This document shows, piece after piece, positions 2,296-17,201 of a stretch of DNA of 64,000 bases. The stretch covers positions 1 to 64,000 of the forward strand of contig JAKFUF010000062.1 in NCBI GenBank assembly GCA_021732845.1. Reading direction: 5' to 3'. Source of the stretch: Planctomycetaceae bacterium. Lineage in GTDB: Bacteria > Planctomycetota > Planctomycetia > Planctomycetales > Planctomycetaceae. The first letter of the stretch is position 1. Each line of letters begins with the position of its first letter. A model generated the notes under the pieces. The model made no database searches and was not told the origin of the DNA. It was given only the letters and a program-made list of their open reading frames with translations. The position numbers were made by a program, and so were the translations under genes.

Positions 2296-4914
2296 ATGAA
2301 GACTGATGAACTGCGGGAAGCGTACCTGAGCTTCTTCGAATCCAAAGGGTGTGTTCGCAAGCCGAGCGATGTGCTGGTTCCGCGCGACGACAAATCCGTG
2401 CTGTTCACGCCGGCCGGCATGAACCAGTTCAAGAACCAGTTCCTGAGAATCGGGCCGCTGGAGTTCACGCGGGCCACGACTTGCCAGAAGTGCCTTCGTA
2501 CCGGCGACATCGAAAACGTCGGCAATACGGCCTATCACCACACCTTCTTCGAGATGCTGGGGAACTTTTCCTTCGGCGACTACTTCAAGAAGGAAGCGAT
2601 CCACTGGGCGTGGGAATTCTTGACCACGAAGAAGTGGCTCGGACTGGCGGCGGACCGGCTGACGGTCACCGTCTATCAGGACGACGACGAAGCGTTCAAC
2701 ATCTGGAACAAAGAGATCGGCCTGCCCGCCAACCGGATCAGCCGTGAAGGCGAAGGCGAGAACTTCTGGCCCGCGTCGTCGCCCTCGCAGGGTCCCGACG
2801 GCGTCTGCGGCCCGTGCAGCGAAATCTACTATCACCCGCCGGGAAGCAAGGGGAACGTCGAGATCTGGAATCTCGTGTTCACGCAGTTCAACCGCGTCGG
2901 CCCGCCCCCAAACAATCTGCAGCCACTGCCCAAGAACAACATCGACACCGGCATGGGGCTGGAACGCACGGCGGCGGTCCTGCAGGGGTTCGAGAGCAAC
3001 TTCGAGAGCGACTGCCTGAAGCCGCTGTGCCTGGCGTCCGCGGAAGCGGTGGGCGTGCCATATGTGTTCGCGGCGGCGGAAGGTCGCGCGATTCGTCGCA
3101 TTGCCGACCATGTCCGCGCGGTGACGTTCTGCATTCATGAAAACGTCGTGCCGGAATCCGAGAAGCAGGGCTACATCGTCCGCCAACTCCTGCGGCGGGC
3201 GATTCTGGAAGGTTACCTGCTGGGTCAGCACGATCCGTTCCTGCATACGCTGGTGCCCAAGGTCGCCGAAGTGATGAAGCGCCCGTATCCCGAACTGGCG
3301 GAAACGCTGGATCGGGTCAGCATTGTCATCAAGGCCGAAGAGGAAGCGTTTCTGCGGACTGTCGACCGGGGCGTCAAGAAGCTGGAGAAGCTGGTCCAAG
3401 GGGCGGCGGTCACCGGACAGATCAGCGCCGATGCGGCGTTCGACCTGCATCAGACCGACGGTTTTCTGATTGAAATGACCGAGGCGATGGCGGCCCGCAG
3501 CAATGTGAAGGTGGACCGGGCGGGCTTCGACACGCTGGTTGAAGGTCACAAGGTAAAGAGCGGCGGCGGTGCGTTTGATGCGTCAGTGATGAAGGCTGGT
3601 CCGCTGGGCGCGTTGCGGACCACCTCAGAGCCCTCAGAGTTCCTGGGCTACGACACGACAACCGCTGACGCGAAAGTCGTTGGGATCATCGCGGAAGGGC
3701 AACTCGTCGGACATGTGCGAGAAGTTGGCCACAAGGATTCGATCACCGTTGTCCTGGATCGCAGCCCATTCTATGGCGAGTCTGGCGGCCAGGTCGGAGA
3801 CACGGGGACGCTCCGTGGCGCTGACTTTCTGTTTGAAGTCACGGACACCAAGCGCGGCGATGGCTTTATTCTTCACAACGGCCATCTCAAACAGGGTGAA
3901 CTGGCGGTTGGCAAAACAGTCCAGGCGGAAGTCGACGCGGAACGCCGCAATGGTATCCGTCGCGCGCACTCGGCGACGCATCTGTTGCACCACGCGCTGC
4001 AAAAGACGCTGGGCAGCCACGCGACCCAACGTGGGTCAAAGGTCGACAGCGATCTGCTGCGGTTCGACTTCACGCAGCCCACGCCGATCGCCAAGGAACA
4101 CCTCACGGCGATCGAAGACATCGTCAATGAACGGATCGCTGAAGGGGCACACGTAAAGTGGGAATACATGCCCCAGGAAGAGGCGAAGAGGGCCGGTGCC
4201 ATGGCGCTCTTCGGCGAGAAGTATCCCGACATCGTTCGCGTCGTCAGCATGGGCGACTTCAGCCGCGAACTGTGCGGCGGCACACATCTCACCAGCACGG
4301 GCCAGGTCGGCTTTTGCCGGATTGTCAGCGAAGAATCTGTCGCCGCTGGCACCCGCCGCATCGTGGCGGTCACGGGGCCGAAGGCGCTGGAATCGGTGCG
4401 TCATGACCAGACATTGCTGGCGGAAACAGCGGCGCTGGTCAGGGCACCCCGTGCCGAGGATATTCCGCAGCGCGTGGCGGCGCTGGTCGAGGAGGTCCGC
4501 ACGCTCAAGCAGAACCTCAACAAATTACAAAGCGAAGCCTCGGGGAGTGTGATCGATGACCTGCTGGCGAAAGCCACGGAACTGTCGGGCGTGAAGATCG
4601 TCACCGGCCTGGGCGACTGGACCGTCGAAAACATCCGCTCGCACATTGACGAACTCCGCAAACGCGGAGGCTCCATCGCCGTGCTGCTCGGCTCCAGTGT
4701 CGATGGCAAGGTCACCCTGATCAGCGGCCTGACGCGAGACCTGGTTGAGCGCGGGCTCCACGCCGGAGACTGGGTCAAGGCCGCGGCAAAAGTCGTCGGC
4801 GGCAGCGGCGGCGGCCGGCCCGACCTGGCCCAGGCGGGCGGAAAGGCTCCGGAAAAACTGCCGCAGGCGATCACCGATGGCATCGCGTTTTTGCGGTCGA
4901 AACTCGGCGGGTGA
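2296..4914 (+). CDS. alaS: Alanine--tRNA ligase
   Basis: Charges tRNA-Ala with alanine in the cytoplasm and edits mischarged Ser/Gly. The 872 residues match the usual AlaRS length (about 875). The N-terminus reads [17 protein letters not shown], followed by the class II motif 1/2 region with [14 protein letters not shown]. The editing domain has the zinc-binding [11 protein letters not shown] and the later [12 protein letters not shown]. The C-terminus has the glycine-rich [15 protein letters not shown] of the DHHA1 domain. The ATG at 2296 (MKTDEL) is chosen because the residues before it in the longer frame do not resemble the family. Upstream lies a repeat pair and no T-box-like leader was recognised. 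Downstream is an unrelated membrane protein. Confidence 0.98.
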
Positions 4915-5031
4915 GCGGAATTAATCCCTGGCCATGATGAGACATCGTGAGGATTTGGATGGGTGCATGTCCATAGGCAGGCTTTCGGCAACGTGCGTTC
5001 AGACTGCCATTACCTGGGCCACGGCGTCAAA

Positions 5032-6090
5032 ATGAGCGATTTTCAAAAGGGATTCTCCAGCCAGTTCCTTTTCCATCGCGTCGTCGAAAAGGGCCTCCTG
5101 GAAGCCACCGAGTGGCGCACATTCTCGGAGATACCGCTTTACCCGGTGGGCACCTGGCTCATCCGTCCGCGCACGGCTGCCTATGCCCACGATCCGCAGT
5201 CCGTGGAGCGCCTCGAAGAAAGGCACACGTCGGGTCTCCGAATTATTTGGATGTACATTTGCGTGCTGGGTGCTCTGTTCGTCATTGGAGCCCCAATCAT
5301 GGCGATGATTTACTTCTCGCAAAATCCCTGGATGAAAGAATCCTGGTGGGCGGTGTTCGCCGTCCTTGGATCGATTGCCTGGGCTGTTGTCGGCTGGACA
5401 ATTTTGGACCTGAGGCGGGCGGACCTTTATAAGGCCAACCTCCATCAGGCCAGTCTTCCTCAAGCCAGTCTGTCCGATGTCCCAGGAGGAACCATGCGTG
5501 AAGATGCCCGACGGCTTCAGGAGTTCCACCCGGAGCCCGCCCTGCGTTCTGCCCTGCATTACGCATTCGCACACAAGTTTCTCCCGCCATACATCCACTC
5601 GAACCCCCGCGCGTTTCTAATGGCTGTCACGGACCCGAAACTGGCCATCGACCCGACGAAGTACATTCAGGCGCGATGGCAGATGTTCGAACAGAACGCC
5701 GGAGTTGGCCAGTTGCCGACAAATCCGCTTCAACCTGGGTACATGATCCGCCGGGTGACCGATTTGGGCATGGATGTGAACTCGATACTCGACCGCCCCG
5801 TGGCGATTGTCCGGATGCCGATTCCAGAGGCGGCGGCCCAGGCGTACTTTGTCGCCGTCGTCCCAGTCATGGAGGGCCTCACGCCCGCTGAGTGGCCGGA
5901 AGATTTCCGGGTCCGAGTCTTCACACTCGAAGCCACCCTGGACGCTCCGCGGCTGCCTGGCACCCAGGCGATCTTATGCGAATGGGGAGCCGACGGCACA
6001 CATGCCAACAGAGGGAGACTGCTCCCGGCAACTGCCGACGATTTCCTGGAGGAGGTCCAACGCCAACTGCAGGCCGAACCCGCAGCATGA
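5032..6090 (+). CDS. Hypothetical membrane protein with two helices
   Basis: 352 residues from the ATG at 5032 (MSDFQKGFSSQFLFHR). Two hydrophobic segments lie at about residues 67-90 (MYICVLGALFVIGAPIMAMI) and 101-123 (WAVFAVLGSIAWAVVGWTIL by texture). They are separated by a short loop, so both ends may be cytoplasmic. A soluble C-terminal part of about 220 residues follows. The stretch DLYKANLHQASLPQASL has a pentapeptide-repeat look, but only for three turns. I do not recognise the family. The longer frame from 4963 is less likely because it lacks a Shine-Dalgarno sequence. No operon partner is evident. Confidence 0.75.
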   Translation: MSDFQKGFSSQFLFHRVVEKGLLEATEWRTFSEIPLYPVGTWLIRPRTAAYAHDPQSVERLEERHTSGLRIIWMYICVLGALFVIGAPIMAMIYFSQNPWMKESWWAVFAVLGSIAWAVVGWTILDLRRADLYKANLHQASLPQASLSDVPGGTMREDARRLQEFHPEPALRSALHYAFAHKFLPPYIHSNPRAFLMAVTDPKLAIDPTKYIQARWQMFEQNAGVGQLPTNPLQPGYMIRRVTDLGMDVNSILDRPVAIVRMPIPEAAAQAYFVAVVPVMEGLTPAEWPEDFRVRVFTLEATLDAPRLPGTQAILCEWGADGTHANRGRLLPATADDFLEEVQRQLQAEPAA

Positions 6091-6313
6091 AGCCCTCGGC
6101 GAAATTGGGTGTTCGCTGTCATGACGACGCTTTCAGCCCGGTTTTACCCCTCGTGGCTGGTTGACATGAGGTATTTTGCTGCCTGGCCACCGAGTTTCCC
6201 CCACCGGCGAACAGGTTCACTGCGACTGCGATTGTCCCTGTGCCACGTTCCCGATAAAAAGGTTTTCGACCGAGCAGAACTTTGTGGTTTTGAACCAGCG
6301 CAGGGAGGCCAGG

Positions 6314-7105
6314 ATGCCCGCTGAACGATTTGTGCGCCAGTCGCTGCTGTTCTTGGTTCTCGTTTTCAGTGCCGGCGCAACGCTGTCCGCCGAAGAAGAA
6401 CTCACCGAGTTGCCGCCGCCGAAGGAACGCGAGCGGATTGGTGAAGTGTTGGGCAAGCTGGTCTACCGCGACGAGATCGACGAGCGGAGCTTCGGCGAGG
6501 ACGGGAAGGAATTGCTGGAGGAAGAACTCGCTCGGCTATTCTGCGCGCCACCGATGCAGAAATATCTAGCAAAACACAAGCTGGAATTTGAACCCACCTC
6601 TGCGGAAATGAAGGCCGAAGCCGAGCATTCGCGTGAAGGGGGGAAAGTGCTCAAAAGACAGTATGTTGATCGCTTAAAAACTATCGAGACAAAGCTCGCC
6701 GCGGAAACAATTGCCGAGCGTCGTCTGAAGCTGATTGAGAACCGGGATTCCGAACAGGAGATGATCGATCTTCTCGAGCAGGCAGCGCCGGAAGAAATTT
6801 TGAGGTATTCGATCATTCAACTCAAAGTTCAACGGCATTTGCATGGCAGGTTTGGCGGCCGGGTGCAGTTCCAGCAATTTGGACCAGAGAGCGTGGACGC
6901 GCATCGAAAACTGGTGCAGGAGCTGGAAAAGAACGGTGACTTCAAGATCACCGACAAAGCATTACGGGCCGCGCTCTACAAGCAATGGGATGTCGCTGAC
7001 GGCTCTCATGATCTGACGGACGACAAGGATGAAATCCGCAAAATGCTGTACCCCGAATGGCTCCCGCAGGAGCCGGTCAAGACAGCAGTCAAGCCGGACA
7101 AATGA
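6314..7105 (+). CDS. Secreted protein resembling a foldase N-terminal domain (paralogue 1)
   Basis: 263 residues with a typical signal peptide (MPAERFVRQSLLFLVLVFSAGATLSAEE, cleavage after LSA likely). The mature part begins with charged residues, then IGEVLGKLVYRDEID. That segment looks like the start of SurA/PrsA-type N-terminal domains (g.V.G.pI.rdEi), followed by helices rich in Glu/Lys/Arg. No PPIase domain follows, so at most it is the chaperone-like part. The ATG at 6314 has a good AGGGAGG upstream. The next gene (7354) is a paralogue with the same layout, so the two arose by tandem duplication and were then separated by a repeat pair. Function is inferred only from texture. Confidence 0.75.
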   Translation: MPAERFVRQSLLFLVLVFSAGATLSAEEELTELPPPKERERIGEVLGKLVYRDEIDERSFGEDGKELLEEELARLFCAPPMQKYLAKHKLEFEPTSAEMKAEAEHSREGGKVLKRQYVDRLKTIETKLAAETIAERRLKLIENRDSEQEMIDLLEQAAPEEILRYSIIQLKVQRHLHGRFGGRVQFQQFGPESVDAHRKLVQELEKNGDFKITDKALRAALYKQWDVADGSHDLTDDKDEIRKMLYPEWLPQEPVKTAVKPDK

Positions 7106-7144
7106 GTTCTCGGAATCTCTCGCTGCCAATCAGCAGGGTGATGT

Positions 7145-7293
7145 CGCGGGAGGGCGAAGCTCCTGCTGAGCCACGGTGTACGGCACATCCTCGTTCCACG
7201 CATCATTCCTCCCATCATTTCCGCTCAAATTCGTGCCTCAAAAACCGAGTCATCTCATGCTCGCGGCTCGGCAGGAGCCTCGCCCTCCCGCCA
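7145..7293. repeat. Inverted pair of dispersed palindromes (family B)
   Basis: The left arm at 7145-7174 reads CGCGGGAGGGCGAAGCTCC then TGCTGAGCC. The right arm at 7261-7293 is its near-complement, GGCTCGGCAGGAGCC then TCGCCCTCCCG. A third copy stands alone at 25306-25336. The pair lies exactly between two paralogous genes (6314 and 7354), so it may have taken part in, or followed, their duplication. No coding function is seen. Confidence 0.75.
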
Positions 7294-7353
7294 CGTCGAT
7301 CGCCGAAGGAGAACGAATTGTTTGCTCCAGTTTTGCATGTTGGCCAGGGCAGG

Positions 7354-8166
7354 ATGCCCGCTGAACATTTTGTGCGTCCGTTGCTTCTGTTGGTCCTCGT
7401 ACTGAGTGCCGGCGCAGCGCCAGCGGCCGAAGAGAAACCCACTCAACGAACGCCACCGAGGCAGCGTGAACGGATTGGCGAGGTCCTGGGCCAGCCAGTC
7501 TACCGCGACGAAATCGATGCCAGTGGCTCAGGCGAAAACGGAGAGCAAGTGCTTGAGCAAGAACTCGTGCGCTTGTTTTGTGATCGTCTGGTCGAACGTT
7601 ATCTGGCAAAGCACAAAGCTGAGATCGAACCCACGCCGGCCGAGTTGCAGGCCGCGACGGCGGCTTATCGCAAGGTCATGGCCGAACGCAGAAAAAGCCA
7701 TCTCGACGAGTTGAAGGAGATCGAGGCGGGGCTCGTAGCGGAAGCAGTCGCTGCGAAGCCAAACGCACAACGCCGACAGGATCTGATTGAGCAGCGGGAT
7801 TTCGTCAAGGAAATGATCGAAGCGTCGAATGTGGAGGCGTCTCTCCAGGCCGAGCGGGGTTTCCTCATCTCGCTGAAATTTAACCGGCACCTGCACGCGA
7901 GGTTCGGTGGCCGCTTGCATTGCGGGAAATCTGGGCTGATCGCCTTTGACGCCGAACGGAAGTTGTTCTTGGAGCTGGAGAAGAGCGGAGACTTCCGCAT
8001 CACGGACAAGGGGCTGCGAGCCACGTTCTACGGATCTTGGAGTCAGTTCGCAGACGATGAACAGGTGAAGACCGACCAGGACGAGATCCGTGGATTGCTG
8101 TATCCCGCGTGGCTCCCGCGGGAGCCCATGAAAACCGCGGCAACGGCCAGGCCGCGAGCAGATTGA
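7354..8166 (+). CDS. Secreted protein resembling a foldase N-terminal domain (paralogue 2)
   Basis: 270 residues, paralogous to the gene at 6314. It has a signal peptide MPAEHFVRPLLLLVLVLSAG followed by AAPAAEE, then RERIGEVLGQPVYRDEID, then alternating charged helices (LAKHKAEIEPTPAELQAA) and the shared end KSGDFRITDKGLRATFY followed by LLYPAWLPREP. The conserved start RERIGEVLG and the conserved end YPxWLPxEP show that both copies are full length. The ATG at 7354 is chosen because the signal peptide starts there. The longer frame reaches back through the family B repeat. A role in the periplasm is inferred from export; the substrate is unknown. Confidence 0.75.
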   Translation: MPAEHFVRPLLLLVLVLSAGAAPAAEEKPTQRTPPRQRERIGEVLGQPVYRDEIDASGSGENGEQVLEQELVRLFCDRLVERYLAKHKAEIEPTPAELQAATAAYRKVMAERRKSHLDELKEIEAGLVAEAVAAKPNAQRRQDLIEQRDFVKEMIEASNVEASLQAERGFLISLKFNRHLHARFGGRLHCGKSGLIAFDAERKLFLELEKSGDFRITDKGLRATFYGSWSQFADDEQVKTDQDEIRGLLYPAWLPREPMKTAATARPRAD

Positions 8167-8321
8167 GCAGCTCCCCGGAAGATTTTCTTGAGCAACCCAG
8201 CAAAAGCTGGCCAGCCCGGCCCGCGCGCCGTTCAATCTGCGGCGGTCTTGTGTCATAGTGGAGCACAATTGCTCACTCGACCCGTGTCACAGACCCCCTC
8301 GCGACTGAAGGAGCGGCCTTC

Positions 8322-9380
8322 ATGCCTGACTTGCAGGATGGTGAATCGACAGAAATGCAGGGTTCCGGGAAGAGCCCGTATATTCTCAAGAACGTGGGCG
8401 GCGTTTACTCCTGCACCTGCCCGGCGTGGCGGAATCAATCCCTGGGGATCGAGCAGCGAACCTGCAAGCATCTGAAAAAGCTGCGGGGGGAGGCGGCCGA
8501 GGTGGCGCGCCTGAAGGAGATGGCCGAACGCACGGGGGCCGATCCGGCGGCGGCGGTGACCCGGGCCCAGGCGAAACCAGTCGGAGGAGAGGCGGCGGAG
8601 AAAGCCGCAGAGAAGGCGGCTCCCGTGTTGCTGGCCGAAAGCTGGGACCAGTGCCAGGATCTGAGTGGGTGGTGGCTCAGCGAAAAACTGGACGGCGTCC
8701 GTGCTTATTGGAACGGAAGGACTTTCCTCTCGCGCCTGGGCAACGTCTTCCACGCTCCCGATTGGTTCATGAAGGGGCTGCCAGACACCCCACTTGACGG
8801 TGAACTGTGGCTCGACCGCAAGGCGTTCCAGCGGACCGTCAGCATCGTCCGCCGCCAGGACAAAAGCGACCACTGGAAGCAGCTCAAATTCGTGGTCTTC
8901 GACGCCCCGGCCCTCGACGAAACCTTCGAGAAGCGGCAGGCGTTTCTCGACGACTGGGTCTCACGGCAGCAACTCGACTACCTGCAGGTTTTGAAGCACG
9001 AACTCTGCACCGGTCTGACACATCTCCAAACGGAGCTGGCACGGGTTGAAAACCTCGGTGGCGAGGGCCTGATGCTCCGTCAACCGGGGTCAAAGTACAT
9101 CGTGGGCCGTTCCAGCACGCTGCTGAAGTTAAAGACGTTCCACGACGCGGAGGCCCGCGTCATCGGCCATGAAGAAGGCCGCGGCCGGCACAAGGGACGG
9201 CTGGGTGCACTCGTGGTGGAACTGGCCGACGGCACCCGGTTCTCGGTGGGCACGGGGTTCTCGGACAAACAGCGCGAGTCGCCCCCGCCGATCGGCAGCG
9301 ACATCACCTTTCGCTACCAGGAACTGTCCGATGGAGGCGTCCCCCGTTTTCCCTCATTTGTGGGTCCGCGCGGAGAGTAG
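8322..9380 (+). CDS. ATP-dependent DNA ligase with N-terminal SWIM zinc finger
   Basis: 352 residues. Residues about 20-50 form a SWIM zinc finger (CxC at CTC, then CKH). A charged linker rich in Ala/Glu follows. The adenylation domain starts near residue 105: motif I is SEKLDGVRAYW, in which the Lys is the AMP-accepting residue. DGELW is motif III, EGLMLR motif IV and LLKLK motif V. The end (GALVVELADGTRF and onward) fits the OB-fold domain. It seals nicks using ATP. The small size fits an accessory repair ligase, not the replicative NAD-dependent enzyme. The SWIM finger probably adds DNA binding. GGAG upstream of ATG 8322 supports the start. No Ku or polymerase neighbour is seen. Confidence 0.92.
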   Translation: MPDLQDGESTEMQGSGKSPYILKNVGGVYSCTCPAWRNQSLGIEQRTCKHLKKLRGEAAEVARLKEMAERTGADPAAAVTRAQAKPVGGEAAEKAAEKAAPVLLAESWDQCQDLSGWWLSEKLDGVRAYWNGRTFLSRLGNVFHAPDWFMKGLPDTPLDGELWLDRKAFQRTVSIVRRQDKSDHWKQLKFVVFDAPALDETFEKRQAFLDDWVSRQQLDYLQVLKHELCTGLTHLQTELARVENLGGEGLMLRQPGSKYIVGRSSTLLKLKTFHDAEARVIGHEEGRGRHKGRLGALVVELADGTRFSVGTGFSDKQRESPPPIGSDITFRYQELSDGGVPRFPSFVGPRGE

Positions 9381-9502
9381 CGCCCAATCACGTGCCCAGA
9401 GACTTGGCGACGCTTTCAACGGCGGAAACGTGGAACGGGTCTTCCGTTTTGGTCAGTTTGCGGTATCCTCAAGGTCGGAAAATTCTCGGAGAACGAGCCC
9501 CG

Positions 9503-12500
9503 ATGCCAATCCAGTACCGCTGCCCAGAATGCCGTCGTCTGTTGAGCATTTCCAGCCGCAAGGCGGGAGAGATGCTTCCCTGCCCCGCATGTGGTCACTG
9601 GTCCCGCGTCCCAGTCGTGGCCAAAACTCCAGAGGCACCGGCAGCTCCGCCAAAGCCAGCCAAGCCGCCAGCCGCGCCAACTCCGAATGAAGTGCAGGAG
9701 ATCCTGAAGAAACTCGACGGCAGCATCCACCTCAAGGATCAGTCGATTCCGCCCGGTGGATTCCGCAAGCCGCCGCGCCGTACGCCCGAACGGGTGTTTT
9801 TCACATCCAATCCCGCACCCGAAACATTTGCTCAGCCTGACTCGGATGCACCGGGAAGCCCGCCGGCCGATGAACCCGCACCCAAACTGAAGGGGCTGGC
9901 CAGTTTTGCCGAACAGGTGGCCACCTCCCAGCCGGAGGCCGCTGAGCCATCGAAGGCCGCACCCCAGGCAAAGGGCAGTGATGCAACCCCTTCGACGGGG
10001 AAAAAATCGTCAGAGAAGTTGCCAGCAGGCAAGTCTCCCGGTGACGAAGCAGCACGCACACCAACTGAGCCACCGGTCTCGCTTCCCCACCGCGACAAGC
10101 GTGAGTCGGAAAAGTCAGGGAGTGAGAAGCGGAAAGAGGAACGCGGAACTCCGGAGAAGACCGTGAGTGCGAAGGAGACTGCCGAGAAAGATGCGGTCCA
10201 GCGGTCCAAATCCACGGCCGCGGTCACGCCGGGTCCCAAAGCTGAAGTGCCTGAGAAGCGTGGGACCAAGGCCGCGGAGTCTGCGCCGCCGGCTGTGGCT
10301 GCCAGGGACAGTGCCGAACCAGACAAATCCCTCGAAACGGAGAGTCCCAGGAAGTCGATGCAGCGTGCGGTTTTCATCAGCCTGAGCGATCTGGATCCGC
10401 AGGAAGTGCCTGAGGACGACTTCAGCCTGAATGCGTCGATCGCGTTGCCCGAGGACTGGGCGCCCAAGTATCTCGACGATGCTCCGCCAAGTGTTGGGGA
10501 AGATTCGTTTGCGGAGGCATCGGCGGCGGAAGGTTCGAATTCCGCACCGATGCCGCTGGCGGAAGTGGCCCCTGCAACTCCGAAGCCAGCCCCACCGCCA
10601 AAACCCGCCCCACCGCCGAAGGTCGCGGAGTCCCGGCCCTCGGGAAACTACCGAGATTTTCTGGAGGACAGCGTTGTCAGCCTGCACGACGATCGGGAGG
10701 TCAAGCAGTACCCCAGCCGGATGCTGTCACTCGACAACGACGACTTCAGCATTGATGGTCCGCCGGCGGTAACTGGCCCGGCATCGATTTTCGACGAGAC
10801 TGAGCGGGGTTCGTCCCACCGGGACATCACGCCGGGCGGCGATGAGGCCAGCCTGGACATCGTCGCCGCACTGCCTGACGAGGAGACACCGGAAGCGCGG
10901 GCGACCTATATCCCGGCCGATGTCAACCTTGTGGACGATCGGGAACAGAGCCTCGACGGTGTGGTGCGGCTCGCGGAAGAAGCGCCCGACGATGACGCCG
11001 AGGAATGGTTGGCCGCGCCGGTTGCCGGAATCCCTCCGGGGACGCTTCCGCCCGGTGGCCCCGCCTCGATTTTTGACACCCCCGTCGCCGGACCCGCCGA
11101 GGCGGCCAACCATCCTTCGGGGGCTGACGAATTGAGCATGGATGGGGTGACCGCCATCCCGGACGAGATCGAACCCGCCCGGCAATTCGCCACCGCGACC
11201 CCCGAGACGCCAACGTTTTTTGGCACACCGGCGATTGACTTGCCGGAGGCCGACGAAAGCTTCCTGCGGTCCGAAGTGGTTGACACTGCCGCCCCACCAT
11301 CGATTTTCGATGAACCAGTCGCCACGACGACGACACAAGGCGAAGACCAGCCTGAATACAGCATGGATGGAGTGGTCGCGCTGCCCGAGGCCGACGGCAC
11401 TTTCCTGCCGCCAGAAGCCGCTGGTGGAAGGACGCCCTCAATCTTCGACGAGACGTTCTCGACACCGGCGGACGCGGCCGCCAAACCGGCGGAGAGCGAG
11501 ACTCCCGAGTACAGCATGGACGGAGTTGTCGCATTGCCGGAAGCCGATGGCAGTTTTTTCCCACCGGAAGCTGCCGGAGCGGTGCGGCCCTCGATCTTCG
11601 ATGAGACTTTTTCGCCGTCGGCGGAAGCAGCCGCCAAAGCGGCGGAGAGCGAGACTCCCGAATTCAGCATGGACGGAGTTGTCGCGCTGCCCGAAGCCGA
11701 TGGCAGCTTCTTTCCGCCGGCAGCCGCCGGAGCGGTGCTTCCGTCGATTTTCGACGAGACTTTTTCGCCGTCAGCGGAAGCAGCCGCCAAAGCGGCGGAG
11801 GACGACACTCCTGAATTCAGCATGGACGGAGTTGTCGCGCTGCCCGAAGCCGATGGCAGCTTCTTTCCGCCGGCAGCCGCCGGAGCAGTGCTTCCGTCGA
11901 TTTTCGACGAGACCTTTTCGCCGTCAGCGGAAGCAGCCGCCAAAGCGGCGGAGGACGGGACTCCTGAATTCAGCATGGATGGAGTTGTCGCACTGCCGGA
12001 AGCCGATGGCAGCTTCTTTCCGCCGGCAGCCGCCGGAGCGGTGCGGCCCTCGATCTTCGATGAGACCTTTTCTCCGTCAGCGGAAGCAGCCGCCAGAGCT
12101 GAAAGTGAGATCCCTGAGTATAGTATCGACGGCGTCGTCGCGTTGCCGGAGGCGGATGGAAGTTTCTTTCCGCCAGAAGCCGCCGGTACTCCCAAGCCGT
12201 CGATCTTCGACGAAACCTTTTCGACACCAGCCGACCCAGCCGACCCAGCCGCGATCGCGGCTGATGGCGAGGCTCCCGAATACAGCCTCGACGGAGTTGT
12301 CGCGCTGCCCGAAGCGGATGGAAGTTTTTTGCCGCCACAAGCCGCCGGCGCGACAAGACCATTGGTGTTTGACGAACAGTTCTCTGTCCCCGAAGAACCA
12401 GCACCGGCCGGTGCCGTGGTCCCCTCCATTTTTGACGCAAACTACGGGGTGCCGTCGGCGGCGACGGACCCGTCGGCAACCGTCGACGACCGGGGCGATT

Positions 12501-15500
12501 CCCGTACATACAGCCTGGATGGAGTGGTGGCCCTGCCAGGGGCAGACGGCGATTTCCTGTCGCCGGTCGCACCGGCGGCAGCGGTTGCCCCCTCGATTTT
12601 CGATGAGAACTTTGGATCTTCGGCGGCGGCCAGCGATCCGGCAGGCACCATCGACGATCATGGCGAGTCGCCGGAGTACAGCCTCGATGGAGTGGTGGCC
12701 CTGCCGGAAGCCGACGGCAGTTTTCTGCCGCCAGAGACACCAGCCGCCGCACCATCGTCGGTGTTTGATGAATCATTCGCCGTGCCTGCTGGACCGGACT
12801 TTGCCACCGGGGGAGGGCCCCGGGATGAGCTGTTCCCGGACTCCGCGGCTGCTCCCGCGGGCGATGATCAGGAATACAGTCTGGACGGGATCGTTGTGTT
12901 CCCGGAAGAACCCGGCTTCAACGTCGCCGAAGTTGACGATCGGGAAGCCAGCCTGGATGGCATTGTGGTCTTCTCCGACGAAGAGCCGGGAAATGCCGCC
13001 GATCAGCCAGGTATTCCGGAATCGCTGACTTCGATCTTTGATGAGGCACCCGACAACCGCTTGAATCGCGGCCCCTTCCAAGACATGAGCATGGAGGGGG
13101 CTGAGTCTGAAGGCCCCCGCGCCACGCTGTTTGAATCGCGCGATGTGCTGAGTCATGGCAGCCTGGGCAAGGATGTCTGTCCGCTCCCAGCGAACCTTGC
13201 AGGCGCTCCTTCGCAGTCAGCAGCCATGCCGCGGGCGAGCATCGAGAGCCCAAAGACGCTGGACCTGCCCCCAACGCCGGTGGATCTGAAAGTCGAGGCC
13301 CAGGCAACGCCCGTCGGCACCGGCTCGCCGGGTAAGATCACGGACAGTTGCGAAGATCTGCCGCTGGATGCCATTGTGGACGAGGGGGCGCCCGCCAAGA
13401 TGCGGGGGCCGGGGGAGTCCGACTTCAGCATGGATGAGGCGGTTCTGCTGCCGGATGCGGCTTGTGTCGATCCCGAAAAAGCGAAGCCTGTCGACCAGAC
13501 AGACCTGGAGTGGTCCGTGTTTCAGAAGCCAATGGGCGGCATGACACCCAAGGCACCCGACACCACCGAAGTGCAGTCGCCGCTGACCGACCTGTTGAAC
13601 CGGATCGGCACGGGGACGGGCTCGATGGCGGATGTGAGCCTCGTGTCGCCCTCGTTGGACAACAGCGATCAATCGCTCGATGCCGGTCACATGGGCGGTT
13701 CCATGGGAGACCTGAGTCTCGGCAATCTGGTGGTCACGCCGGACGAGGCGGCGGGGGATATGGTCGAAACCCCTCCATTGGATGTGAGCCAGGATTCGAA
13801 TGTCGACACCGATGGCAGCCAGGATTCCGGTGTGGCGCTGGACGAACTTGACTATTCCACCGCCGCCGAACATTTGAAGGCTGTGGCTCTCGGTCAACCT
13901 CTCCCTCCGACCCAGGCGGGCAATCCTCGGCAGCCCGGGGCCGGCAAAGGGTTGAAGCCGGAGGACACGGCCCTGATCGCCCACAATTCCGGGATTGGGT
14001 CTGTTGAAGACCTCAGCCTGTTCATGGATGCGACCGTCGACAACTCTGTCGATGATCTCTCTGTCAGTGGTGACATGAGCCGGGGTTATCCACAGTTGGT
14101 GGACACAAATGCGGGCCGCGGGCCGGTGGGGGAAGACGCGAGTCTCGTTTCCATGGGTGGTGGCTCCATGGAGGGCGGGAATGAGAGCCTGATTTCCGTC
14201 TCGGACTTGAACCTGGTCGGGTTTGTCGCCACCCCGGACGACGTGGCCGCCGACTTGAAAATGGCACCGATGGATGTCAGCCAGAATTCGGAAATGGGAG
14301 AGGAGGATTCCAGCCAGGACACCGGTGTTTCGCTCAACGACCTGGAGGACGCGGCTCCCGTGCCCGGCCAAAAGGCTCCCACGACATCCGGAAAAACCGA
14401 CAAGTCGATTGCGGCAAAGTCACAGGTGGGAAAATCCGTGGCCGGCAAACCGGCTGCGGAACAATCGTTCGTTTTGGGCGAAGCGAGCATCTACACCTCG
14501 GTGGACGCCACCCGTGACCTGCCAGACGCATTTGCTGGTGAGCCGGCTGGTGGCAAGCCGCTGGCAGCGAATTCCCCATCGGCATCTCCAACCGCTCCCG
14601 ATCGGACGAGTTTCCCGCGAAACAGCGGAATTGGTTCGGTCGAAGATCTCAGTCTGTTCGTCTCTCAGGATGTGACGCGCGAACTGCCCGATGGCACGCT
14701 GCCGGTGGATGTGCCTCCCGATGTGACGCAGAACCGTCCCCACCGCAGCGGCATTGGATCGGTCGAAGACCTGAGTCTCTTCGCCGATGACGAAGTTGCC
14801 CAGAATCCGCCACAAGCCCCGGCAGAAGACAGGCAATCGGGAGTTCCCCCAGAGCCCGACATCAGCCTGTTTACCTCGGAGGACGCGACCCGCGGCTTGC
14901 CTGTCGAAGGATCGCTGGCGGCCATGCCGCAAAGGGCGGCGGGCAGTCCGCCGGAGGCAAAACGGAGTGGCAGCGTCGATTCACCAAAGCCAGTGGCCCG
15001 CGCGACGGAAACCCAGATCGTTCCGCCCTCCAACGAGCCACGGCGGTCTCAGGAACGTTCGTCGGAGCCGCCCCCCAGCCCAAAACAATCGGGAACTTCA
15101 TCGGCTTCACGGAGTTCGTCGGACTCCAAAGGTTCGTCTCCCCGATCCTCGTCCCAAATCTCTTCCGGGCAGGGTTCTTCGACGCAGAGTCCGTCGCCAC
15201 GGAGTTCGTCTCCCACGAATTCTGCCTCATCCCAGTCAGCATCAACCGGCCCGAAAAAGGCGGTTGGCAAGGAATCGAACGGGAGCACCACCCAGGCCTC
15301 CCCCTCGACGGAGAGGGCGCAGGTCGGCACCGGCTCGGTGGAGAACCTGAACCTGGAGCAGCAGGTGGTGATGCCGGACGAAGTGGCGGCCGACCTGCCG
15401 GGACTTGATGTGCAGGGCGACCAGTCTGGAAAAGAGACCTTCGATTTCGCCACGCTTCCACCAGACAAATTCGGCGGTCCGGGCTCTCTGTTTGATTTGT

Positions 15501-16153
15501 CGGAACAACGTAGTCCCAACGCCACAGACAGTTCGAGCGGGTTCCTGGTGGACAGCGTGCCCAGCCTTCCGAATCCGGTGCAGGACTTTGGCGAGGGAGC
15601 GCTGCGCGTCGGCGGGTCATCCCACCCCTCCGTGCTCGGAGCAGCCGTCCGCGGTGCCTCGGTCTGGGATACGGTGGCCCGCGTGGCTCCGGAAGCGGCG
15701 GACCACGACACACCGCCTCCGGAACTGAACATCCGGCCGCGGAAAATCGTCAGCGACGAAATGGACCTGACCCCCATGGTCGACATGACGTTTTTGCTGC
15801 TGATCTTCTTCATGATCACGGCGTCGTTCAGCCTGCAGAAGGCGATCAGCATTCCCACGCCAAAACCGGAAAAGCAGGGGGCCGCCCCGGCCGCCATCAC
15901 CCCGGCGGAGCTGGCGGCCAGTTCGATGTCCGTCCGCATCGCCGCTGACAACACGATCACGGTCAATGACATTCCGGTTCCGGACAAGAGCCAGTTGGCG
16001 GAGGCCCTGCGGAAAGCGATGGATTCCGAACACCAGGATGTCGTCATCTACTACAACGAGGCCGCGGAGTATGCGACCTATCTGTTCGTGGCCGATGCCG
16101 CCACGGGGTTGGGTTTGAACATCCAAAGCATGCCCGTTGACGAGGGGCAATGA
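9503..16153 (+). CDS. Giant zinc-ribbon/repeat/ExbD-TolR fusion protein
   Basis: 2216 residues. The N-terminus is a zinc ribbon (C7, C10, C27, C30 in CPEC and CPAC). Pro/Ala/Lys-rich sequence follows, then many degenerate units of the form YSMDGVVALPEADG ... PSIFDETFS (about 51-56 residues each, clearest at residues about 615-1080). After these comes a second zone with units such as SGIGSVEDLSLF, then a Ser-rich stretch. The last 130 residues are an ExbD/TolR domain: LTPMVDMTFLLLIFFMIT gives one membrane helix with the conserved Asp (D2094), then a small periplasmic domain. ExbD normally has about 140 residues and works with ExbB as a proton-driven motor, but no exbB is in the window. The ATG at 9503 is chosen because the ribbon starts there. 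The next gene begins 1 bp downstream. Confidence 0.85.
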   Translation: MPIQYRCPECRRLLSISSRKAGEMLPCPACGHWSRVPVVAKTPEAPAAPPKPAKPPAAPTPNEVQEILKKLDGSIHLKDQSIPPGGFRKPPRRTPERVFFTSNPAPETFAQPDSDAPGSPPADEPAPKLKGLASFAEQVATSQPEAAEPSKAAPQAKGSDATPSTGKKSSEKLPAGKSPGDEAARTPTEPPVSLPHRDKRESEKSGSEKRKEERGTPEKTVSAKETAEKDAVQRSKSTAAVTPGPKAEVPEKRGTKAAESAPPAVAARDSAEPDKSLETESPRKSMQRAVFISLSDLDPQEVPEDDFSLNASIALPEDWAPKYLDDAPPSVGEDSFAEASAAEGSNSAPMPLAEVAPATPKPAPPPKPAPPPKVAESRPSGNYRDFLEDSVVSLHDDREVKQYPSRMLSLDNDDFSIDGPPAVTGPASIFDETERGSSHRDITPGGDEASLDIVAALPDEETPEARATYIPADVNLVDDREQSLDGVVRLAEEAPDDDAEEWLAAPVAGIPPGTLPPGGPASIFDTPVAGPAEAANHPSGADELSMDGVTAIPDEIEPARQFATATPETPTFFGTPAIDLPEADESFLRSEVVDTAAPPSIFDEPVATTTTQGEDQPEYSMDGVVALPEADGTFLPPEAAGGRTPSIFDETFSTPADAAAKPAESETPEYSMDGVVALPEADGSFFPPEAAGAVRPSIFDETFSPSAEAAAKAAESETPEFSMDGVVALPEADGSFFPPAAAGAVLPSIFDETFSPSAEAAAKAAEDDTPEFSMDGVVALPEADGSFFPPAAAGAVLPSIFDETFSPSAEAAAKAAEDGTPEFSMDGVVALPEADGSFFPPAAAGAVRPSIFDETFSPSAEAAARAESEIPEYSIDGVVALPEADGSFFPPEAAGTPKPSIFDETFSTPADPADPAAIAADGEAPEYSLDGVVALPEADGSFLPPQAAGATRPLVFDEQFSVPEEPAPAGAVVPSIFDANYGVPSAATDPSATVDDRGDSRTYSLDGVVALPGADGDFLSPVAPAAAVAPSIFDENFGSSAAASDPAGTIDDHGESPEYSLDGVVALPEADGSFLPPETPAAAPSSVFDESFAVPAGPDFATGGGPRDELFPDSAAAPAGDDQEYSLDGIVVFPEEPGFNVAEVDDREASLDGIVVFSDEEPGNAADQPGIPESLTSIFDEAPDNRLNRGPFQDMSMEGAESEGPRATLFESRDVLSHGSLGKDVCPLPANLAGAPSQSAAMPRASIESPKTLDLPPTPVDLKVEAQATPVGTGSPGKITDSCEDLPLDAIVDEGAPAKMRGPGESDFSMDEAVLLPDAACVDPEKAKPVDQTDLEWSVFQKPMGGMTPKAPDTTEVQSPLTDLLNRIGTGTGSMADVSLVSPSLDNSDQSLDAGHMGGSMGDLSLGNLVVTPDEAAGDMVETPPLDVSQDSNVDTDGSQDSGVALDELDYSTAAEHLKAVALGQPLPPTQAGNPRQPGAGKGLKPEDTALIAHNSGIGSVEDLSLFMDATVDNSVDDLSVSGDMSRGYPQLVDTNAGRGPVGEDASLVSMGGGSMEGGNESLISVSDLNLVGFVATPDDVAADLKMAPMDVSQNSEMGEEDSSQDTGVSLNDLEDAAPVPGQKAPTTSGKTDKSIAAKSQVGKSVAGKPAAEQSFVLGEASIYTSVDATRDLPDAFAGEPAGGKPLAANSPSASPTAPDRTSFPRNSGIGSVEDLSLFVSQDVTRELPDGTLPVDVPPDVTQNRPHRSGIGSVEDLSLFADDEVAQNPPQAPAEDRQSGVPPEPDISLFTSEDATRGLPVEGSLAAMPQRAAGSPPEAKRSGSVDSPKPVARATETQIVPPSNEPRRSQERSSEPPPSPKQSGTSSASRSSSDSKGSSPRSSSQISSGQGSSTQSPSPRSSSPTNSASSQSASTGPKKAVGKESNGSTTQASPSTERAQVGTGSVENLNLEQQVVMPDEVAADLPGLDVQGDQSGKETFDFATLPPDKFGGPGSLFDLSEQRSPNATDSSSGFLVDSVPSLPNPVQDFGEGALRVGGSSHPSVLGAAVRGASVWDTVARVAPEAADHDTPPPELNIRPRKIVSDEMDLTPMVDMTFLLLIFFMITASFSLQKAISIPTPKPEKQGAAPAAITPAELAASSMSVRIAADNTITVNDIPVPDKSQLAEALRKAMDSEHQDVVIYYNEAAEYATYLFVADAATGLGLNIQSMPVDEGQ
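11501..12109 (+). repeat. 153-bp coding tandem repeat (4 near-identical units)
   Basis: Units start at 11501, 11654, 11807 and 11960, exactly 153 bp apart, and the last is 150 bp long. Each encodes TPE[FY]SMDGVVALPEADGS followed by FFPP[EA]AAGAV and PSIFDETFSP. The DNA is nearly identical between units, while flanking units of the same protein design have diverged. This points to recent local expansion within the ExbD fusion gene. Confidence 0.9.
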
Positions 16154-16154
16154 C

Positions 16155-17201
16155 GTGTTCGCCTCCCACATCTCGCTTCGCACGCTGGAACTCTTCAGCC
16201 GCTCGCTGGGGACCATGCTGGATTCCGGAGTGCCGGTCCTGAAGGCACTCACCACCCTGTCACGCCGCACGGGCAATGCCCGCTGCCGCCGCGTGCTGGA
16301 AGAGGTGGCGCAGCAGGTCAAGCAGGGCGATGAAATCTCGGTGGCCATGCGCGAGCAGGCCGGGTATTTTCCTGACCTGTACTGCGACATGGTCTCCGTT
16401 GCCGAACACACCGGCGGGCTCCCCGAAGTCCTCAGGGGGCTTGCCGACCATTACGACAACCTGTTGCGGACGCGGCGGATGTTCCTGGCGGCGATCGCCT
16501 GGCCGGTCATCCAACTGGTCGGCGCGATTTTTATCGTCGGCGGACTGATCTACCTGCTGGGCACCATCGGCCAGTCGACGCCGAATGCCGAACCCACCGA
16601 CATGCTCGGCTGGGGGCTGCTGGGACCGCGCGGCGCGATGATCTGGTTTGGATCGGCCTTCGGTCTGATCGGCGGGGCGTTCGCCCTGTACTGGCTGCTC
16701 AAAACCACCTTCCGCCAGCAGCGGCTGCTGGATTCCGTGTTGCTCAAAGTCCCCGTCATCGGCCGCTGCATGCGCTCGTTCGCCATCGCCCGCTTTGCCT
16801 GGGGGTTGCACCTGACGCAAAACGCCGGCATGGCGATTGTCCCCAGCCTAGAGGCCAGCCTGCGGGCCACCGGCAACGGGGCGTTTCAGGGGATGTCCCG
16901 TGTTGTCGTGGACCGGATCAAGGAGGGCGACGAACTCAGCGTGGCTCTTGAAGCGACCAGTCTCTTTCCGGAAGATTTCCTGCACACGGTCCAGGTCGCC
17001 GAAACCTCGGGAACCGTCCCCGAGGCCCTGCACCGCCTCAGCCCGCAATTCGAAGACCAGGCCCGCCGCTCCCTCGCCCTGCTGGCCACCGCCGCCACCG
17101 TCGTCGTGTGGCTCTTCGTCGCCGGCATGATCATCTTCGTGGTGTTCAGCATCATCTTCCAGTATCTGGCGATCCTGAATTCGGTGATGGATTTCAAATG
17201 A
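16155..17201 (+). CDS. GspF/PilC-like type II secretion system inner-membrane protein
   Basis: 348 residues with two T2SF domains. The first (about 5-125) contains LFSRSLGTMLDSGVPVLKAL and GDEISVAMREQAGYFPDLYCDMV. The second (about 205-330) contains FAWGLHLTQNAGMAIVPSLEA and GDELSVALEATSLFPEDFL, then AETSGTVPEAL. Hydrophobic segments lie between the two domains and at the C-terminus (VVVWLFVAGMIIFVVFSIIF). In pili and T2SS this protein sits at the base of the machine and meets the assembly ATPase. The GTG at 16155 is preferred over TTG 16137 because GAGGGG lies 8 bases ahead. The stop of the ExbD fusion is 1 bp upstream, so the two are surely co-transcribed. No ATPase, pilin or secretin is nearby. 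Confidence 0.9.
   Translation: MFASHISLRTLELFSRSLGTMLDSGVPVLKALTTLSRRTGNARCRRVLEEVAQQVKQGDEISVAMREQAGYFPDLYCDMVSVAEHTGGLPEVLRGLADHYDNLLRTRRMFLAAIAWPVIQLVGAIFIVGGLIYLLGTIGQSTPNAEPTDMLGWGLLGPRGAMIWFGSAFGLIGGAFALYWLLKTTFRQQRLLDSVLLKVPVIGRCMRSFAIARFAWGLHLTQNAGMAIVPSLEASLRATGNGAFQGMSRVVVDRIKEGDELSVALEATSLFPEDFLHTVQVAETSGTVPEALHRLSPQFEDQARRSLALLATAATVVVWLFVAGMIIFVVFSIIFQYLAILNSVMDFK

Follow-up and report, generated by a model that had tools for sequence, protein, structure and literature searches.

A planctomycete ExbD2-type protein with a zinc ribbon and a giant, repeat-rich N-terminal arm

ExbD/TolR subunits are commonly regarded as small axles that expose next to nothing to the cytoplasm. Proteins of this family, which serve in the 5:2 motors ExbB-ExbD and TolQ-TolR, have about 140 amino acids and share a single helix with the pore aspartate and a small periplasmic alpha/beta domain; their N-terminus is very short and lies in the cytoplasm. 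Long cytoplasmic extensions occur elsewhere in proton-driven motors, for example as the tail of ZorA in Zorya, but to our knowledge not on an ExbD axle. GltJ of Myxococcus xanthus reportedly has cytoplasmic zinc-ribbon and GYF domains, and we know of no extra cytoplasmic domains on the ExbD subunits of Agl. In the ExbB-ExbD motor, the helices of two ExbD subunits sit inside an ExbB pentamer, and rotation is powered by protons that pass the ExbD aspartate (PMC9022066, PMC12905483). Motors of this class are believed to exert their force in the periplasm, and a long cytoplasmic tail is present on GldL of gliding Bacteroidetes (PMC9389320). The AglR-AglQ-AglS motor of Myxococcus xanthus consists of one ExbB-like and two ExbD-like subunits and is accompanied by the FHA-domain membrane protein GltG (FHA and TonB) (PMC3169522). 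The axle composition of this analogous AglRQ/S motor is unsettled (PMC9389320).

Here we analyse a gene for an ExbD-type protein in a 64,000-nucleotide stretch of DNA (the window) from a Planctomycetaceae bacterium. In contrast to the small proteins above, it has 2216 amino acids and an arm of ~2,000 residues in front of the ExbD domain. A search of the literature, restricted to titles and abstracts and of partial coverage, retrieved no description of the zinc-ribbon-ExbD2 family to which we assign it or of the corresponding gene cluster.

Architecture of the giant gene

The gene is a single unbroken open reading frame (Table 1). A preliminary description of this DNA had reported a protein made of a zinc ribbon, repeats and ExbD, and the continuous frame and its ortholog-supported start bear this out: an N-terminal zinc ribbon is followed by acidic, Pro/Ala/Ser-rich repeats of ~2,050 residues and a C-terminal ExbD/TolR domain. 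The stop-free frame extends over positions 9392-16153 and opens with GTG. The ATG at 9503 inside it is the right start, as its MPIQYRCPECRRLLSISSRKAG matches the beginning of orthologs, for instance MAIRFRCSHCNGLLSISSRKAG and MPIKYRCPECRKKIKISSRHEG. Homology at both ends, together with repeat differences that are concentrated in third codon positions, argues that the frame did not arise by chance. An antisense open reading frame (10906-12429, 507 aa) was ruled out as the true gene by the higher synonymous divergence of the sense frame and by the homologous ends. No match pointing to a phage origin was found.

Table 1. Features of the giant gene, its neighbours and related loci. Positions are those of the window unless a locus is named.
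Feature	Locus	Position	Strand	Basis or remark
Short ATP-dependent DNA ligase (DNA_ligase_A_M + OB_2)	window	8322-9380	+	
Giant zinc-ribbon-repeat-ExbD2 gene	window	9503-16153	+	continuous ORF; start backed by orthologs; ~229 kDa, pI ~4.1
N-terminal zinc ribbon CPEC...CPAC, residues 7-30	window	9521-9592	+	cysteine spacing, alignment with short orthologs; no own Pfam match
Pro/Ala/Lys/Glu-rich linker, near charge-neutral, residues 39-308	window	9617-10426	+	composition
Repeat zone 1, residues ~309-1199, S[LMI]DGVVALPE and PSIFDE units	window	10427-13099	+	motif counts versus shuffles
153-bp (51 aa) tandem array, 6.5 copies, within zone 1	window	11354-12352	+	Tandem Repeats Finder
Repeat zone 2, residues ~1386-1985, GIGSVEDLSLF and VVTPDEVAADL...DVSQ...SQDTGVSL units	window	13658-15457	+	local alignments versus shuffles
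ExbD/TolR domain, residues 2086-2205	window	15758-16117	+	PF02472, 66.2 bits; Foldseek
Pore aspartate D2094 with the single transmembrane helix (residues 2095-2113 in the model)	window	15782-15841	+	alignment; model
T2SSF-family gene	window	16137-17201	+	begins inside the giant's stop codon or directly behind it
Conserved cluster in a relative	L062 (G001)	6194-14140		
Conserved cluster in a relative	L066 (G167)	4098-15088		
ExbB and ExbD1, giant's genome	C99 (L079)			ExbB up to 52%, ExbD1 up to 44% identical
FHA/TPR/propeller protein, giant's genome	C89 (L107)			
Solute-binding-like (SBP-like) protein, giant's genome	C9 (L137)			
TM protein, giant's genome	C108 (L136)			

We base the zinc ribbon on its four cysteines and on the alignment with relatives, which share the whole MPIxFRCxxCxxLLSISxRxAG...CPxC stretch with the N-terminus of the giant; no Pfam model matched it. 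At the other end, PF02472 (ExbD) matched far above its cut-off of 25.4 bits. The pore aspartate is D2094, a residue pointed out earlier, and lies in DLTPMVD within DLTPMVDMTFLLLIFF. DLTPMVD shows no variation in the alignment from D28 on, and D2094 opens the single transmembrane helix according to the alignment and the model. Solved ExbD periplasmic domains were the best fold matches of the C-terminal alpha/beta domain (Foldseek: 8pek, 8vgc and 8p9r; E 4e-5 to 4e-4), with a model of only moderate confidence. Profile score, pore aspartate with helix and periplasmic fold thus all place the protein in the ExbD/TolR family (PF02472). Its scores were far below the NCBIfam equivalog cut-offs for TolR (29.7 versus 127.3) and ExbD (19.7 versus 216).

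In a phylogenetic tree, the ExbD1 proteins, including the copy encoded on contig C99 of the same genome, formed a supported clade (100/99) with the giant outside it; the deep branching on the ExbD2 side gives no finer placement of the giant. Judged from these sequence comparisons, the giant is an ExbD2-type subunit, the second ExbD of the planctomycete cluster described below. It unites a CxxC...CxxC ribbon and an ExbD2-type domain in one gene, as do the planctomycete zinc-ribbon-ExbD2 proteins.

Repeats, constraint and predicted disorder

The two zones of repeated short motifs noticed at the outset are real by comparison with shuffled sequences. Zone 1 contains 14 SxDG motifs (0.25 per shuffled linker) and 12 [PSA]S[IVL]FD motifs (0.03 per shuffled linker). 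In zone 2, GIGSVEDLSLF occurs three times and a unit of 45-60 residues is present in two to three copies; in local alignment this unit scored 112, compared with a shuffled maximum of 52. Residues ~1800-1935 of zone 2 form a Ser-rich stretch. Motifs of related sequence keep recurring over ~1,600 residues, and the spacers between them differ greatly.

The copies of the tandem array match each other at 82% (Tandem Repeats Finder). Third codon positions account for 98 of the 152 differences between them, and pN/pS was 0.20-0.24 in the frame of the giant, an estimate drawn from four copies of equal length that gene conversion could have pushed down. The predominance of third-position differences and the pN/pS of 0.20 suggest that the amino-acid sequence of the repeat unit is under constraint.

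The middle of the protein comprises 2,057 residues with a net charge of -213 and contains no hydrophobic segment of membrane-spanning length. Structure prediction, as proposed in the preliminary description, makes it look disordered: a single-sequence AlphaFold run on 400 residues of zone 1 yielded a mean pLDDT of 37.5 and almost no secondary structure. The charge-hydropathy plot was mixed across that zone. Given the topology of ExbD, the repeats would be cytoplasmic.

Short relatives and the motor cluster

The order of zinc ribbon, linker and ExbD domain is conserved in other planctomycetes, where the middle is far shorter. Relatives carry both ends in one gene (best identity 51%); the zinc ribbon and ExbD were not found as separate genes in relatives, an arrangement that had been named beforehand as speaking against the giant. 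In a search with the ExbD domain, 124 of 170 family genomes matched at E 1e-15 or better, and the open frames of the 123 besides the giant's own ranged from 157 to 552 residues. At class level, 239 of 397 genomes matched at E 1e-10 or better, with no other open frame above 552 aa among the matches listed, and a scan of contigs for a second giant turned up nothing beyond short orthologs and distant ExbDs.

The planctomycete zinc-ribbon-ExbD2 proteins have mostly 200-340 aa. Like the giant, they begin with a zinc ribbon, continue with an acidic, Pro-rich linker (the composition, with 12.3% Pro, is common to the linkers of both) and carry the ExbD signature DLTPMVD.TF.LLIFFM.TASFSLQK. Unlike the giant, they have linkers without repeats, of 39-176 residues (median 89) against 2,057, at 43 zinc-ribbon loci from ~40 distinct genomes, three of which appear twice. 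Searches of the other 396 class genomes detected neither repeat zone, and the repeats were not found in other proteins of the giant's genome or class either. The giant form is known from one genome, the sole representative of its genus in the comparison. As far as could be tested, the linker expansion is particular to the giant's lineage.

In some relatives the zinc ribbon is replaced by another domain. A Ser/Thr kinase forms the N-terminus of ExbD2 in genome G005 (L072:4093-5712) and, judged from the sequence start only, in G053 (L073:7609-9249), and residues 26-56 of the ORF in G036 (L031) match GYF_2 weakly (E 0.008). Other orthologs of the family with frames of 500-550 aa may also be kinase fusions. 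Because a kinase or a weakly GYF-like domain can take the place of the ribbon, the N-terminal end of ExbD2 appears to be a regulatory input module. Planctomycete ExbD2 proteins with exchangeable cytoplasmic heads may prove of wider use than the giant itself.

In relatives, ExbD2 is encoded in a cluster with the order cyclase-like/HEAT protein, 312-aa TM protein, ExbB, ExbD1, zinc-ribbon-ExbD2, FHA/TPR/beta-propeller protein and solute-binding-like protein. The FHA protein has an FHA domain, a transmembrane segment, TPR and a beta-propeller (PQQ_2). Whereas the cluster is intact around the short relatives, its members in the giant's genome are dispersed among at least five contigs, with the giant on C3. 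The giant itself lies between a DNA ligase gene and a T2SSF gene; no ExbB gene is present at this locus, and an ExbB-ExbD1 pair of the right subfamily sits on C99. In the stretches that were read, the scattered members are surrounded by unrelated neighbours, so the scatter is not an effect of contig ends.

The cluster of the relatives, and its scattered counterpart in the giant's genome, matches the AglRQS-GltG part list of one ExbB, two ExbD subunits and an FHA membrane protein. However, no TonB domain was found in the planctomycete FHA partner (Pfam: FHA, TPR and PQQ_2 propeller), and the GltG model scored 17.8 against a cut-off of 650. We therefore do not assign the planctomycete proteins to the AglRQS-Glt gliding machinery. 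A Zorya or other defence motor was likewise rejected, as the giant, ExbB and the FHA protein matched no PADLOC family at E 0.001.

Possible working of the arm

On balance we think it probable that the giant bears a flexible, multivalent docking and regulatory arm, located in the cytoplasm, on the ExbD2 subunit of a planctomycete ExbB-ExbD1-ExbD2 motor, and that this arm was stretched by tandem duplication. Family-wide, ExbD2 would have a cytoplasmic arm made of a short, acidic, Pro-rich, disordered linker that ends in a zinc ribbon or in a kinase or weakly GYF-like domain. Tandem duplication in the giant's lineage would then have extended the linker from ~90 to ~2,050 residues and supplied dozens of short hydrophobic/acidic motifs. 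The arm would carry the zinc ribbon, and its many weak sites could recruit or cluster a putative cytoplasmic partner at the motor, while protons would flow past D2094 and force would act in the periplasm, as in other ExbB/ExbD motors. As the motor would contain one type of ExbB but two types of ExbD, its axle could plausibly be a heterodimer that bears a single arm. More tentatively, the very long disordered arm on the axle might be a multivalent scaffold that concentrates signalling partners (zinc-ribbon, kinase or FHA-linked) at the motor and thereby gates it, in a regulated, Agl-like branch of planctomycete motors under cytoplasmic control by way of ExbD2.

ZorA and GldL resemble the giant in combining a proton motor with a long cytoplasmic extension. 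Their tails, however, are on the pentamer (MotA/ExbB-like) subunit, whereas the giant bears its apparently disordered extension on the ExbD axle. A planctomycete-wide ExbD2 subfamily with zinc-ribbon, kinase or GYF-like modules and an FHA partner suggests that such motors can be under control from within the cell. As the extreme case, the giant provides a natural test of whether arm length and motif number matter.

The main rival of the docking arm is a spacer grown by slippage: a permissive disordered linker would have expanded near-neutrally during replication and been tolerated, without gaining any function that the short linker lacks. Such growth agrees with a giant form in one lineage only, with a recent array of 82%-matching copies and with linkers of relatives that already range from 39 to 176 aa. 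It is harder to reconcile with repeats whose protein sequence was kept while synonymous sites diverged (pN/pS 0.20-0.24), with related motifs spread over ~1,600 residues between very different spacers, or with 6.6 kb free of frameshifts and stops. We regard near-neutral growth as a possible explanation, though not the likely one.

The preliminary description, confirmed in what it observed, was upheld only in part where it interpreted: the order of domains, the disorder and the signalling context stood, and the FHA motifs and the cargo did not. It had considered a docking array for kinases or FHA-type readers. In the form assessed here, Ser/Thr kinases would phosphorylate the repeats and the FHA protein of the ancestral cluster would read them. 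This is a doubtful reading. The gene for the FHA protein adjoins ExbD2 in relatives and persists in the giant's genome, and some relatives have a kinase fused to ExbD2; yet the FHA-type pT-x-x-[D/I/L] motif is not enriched in the linker (20 observed versus 18.1 expected). TPE/TPD is enriched there (11 versus 2.2 expected) and S..D mildly so, but the TPE excess is largely due to the tandem repeat. Moreover, the short arms of relatives do without these repeats despite the FHA partner.

We consider the other role suggested earlier, a tether to a cytoplasmic cargo, very unlikely; here the arm would connect the motor mechanically to a cargo or filament, and the zinc ribbon would serve as the hook. 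The calculated dimensions of the arm (contour length ~730 nm, coil Rg ~18 nm) speak for this role, and motor relatives with long cytoplasmic tails on the other subunit are known (ZorA; GldL, PMC9389320). However, no cargo is evident, nor any transmission of force into the cytoplasm, and a disordered coil is a poor transmitter of force; since force in this motor class is thought to be periplasmic (PMC9389320), an arm for regulation or docking is likelier than a tether. Finally, a fusion of separate genes by an assembly or gene-model artefact is highly improbable: the genome is a draft of 262 contigs and the exact repeat number could be mis-assembled, but relatives have both ends in one gene, one open frame shows coding bias throughout, the motif families are the same on both sides of the array, and the gene is far from either end of its 152-kb contig.

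A functional link between the giant and the T2SSF gene was also considered and rejected, as in the regions read the T2SSF relatives elsewhere had neither an ExbD nor a repeat gene as a neighbour. On the other side of the giant, the N-terminal CTC...CKH stretch of the DNA ligase resembles a SWIM zinc finger. Further upstream, at 6176-8166 on the + strand, two adjoining open reading frames of similar sequence (RERIGEVLG...VYRDEID) apparently represent a tandem gene duplication.
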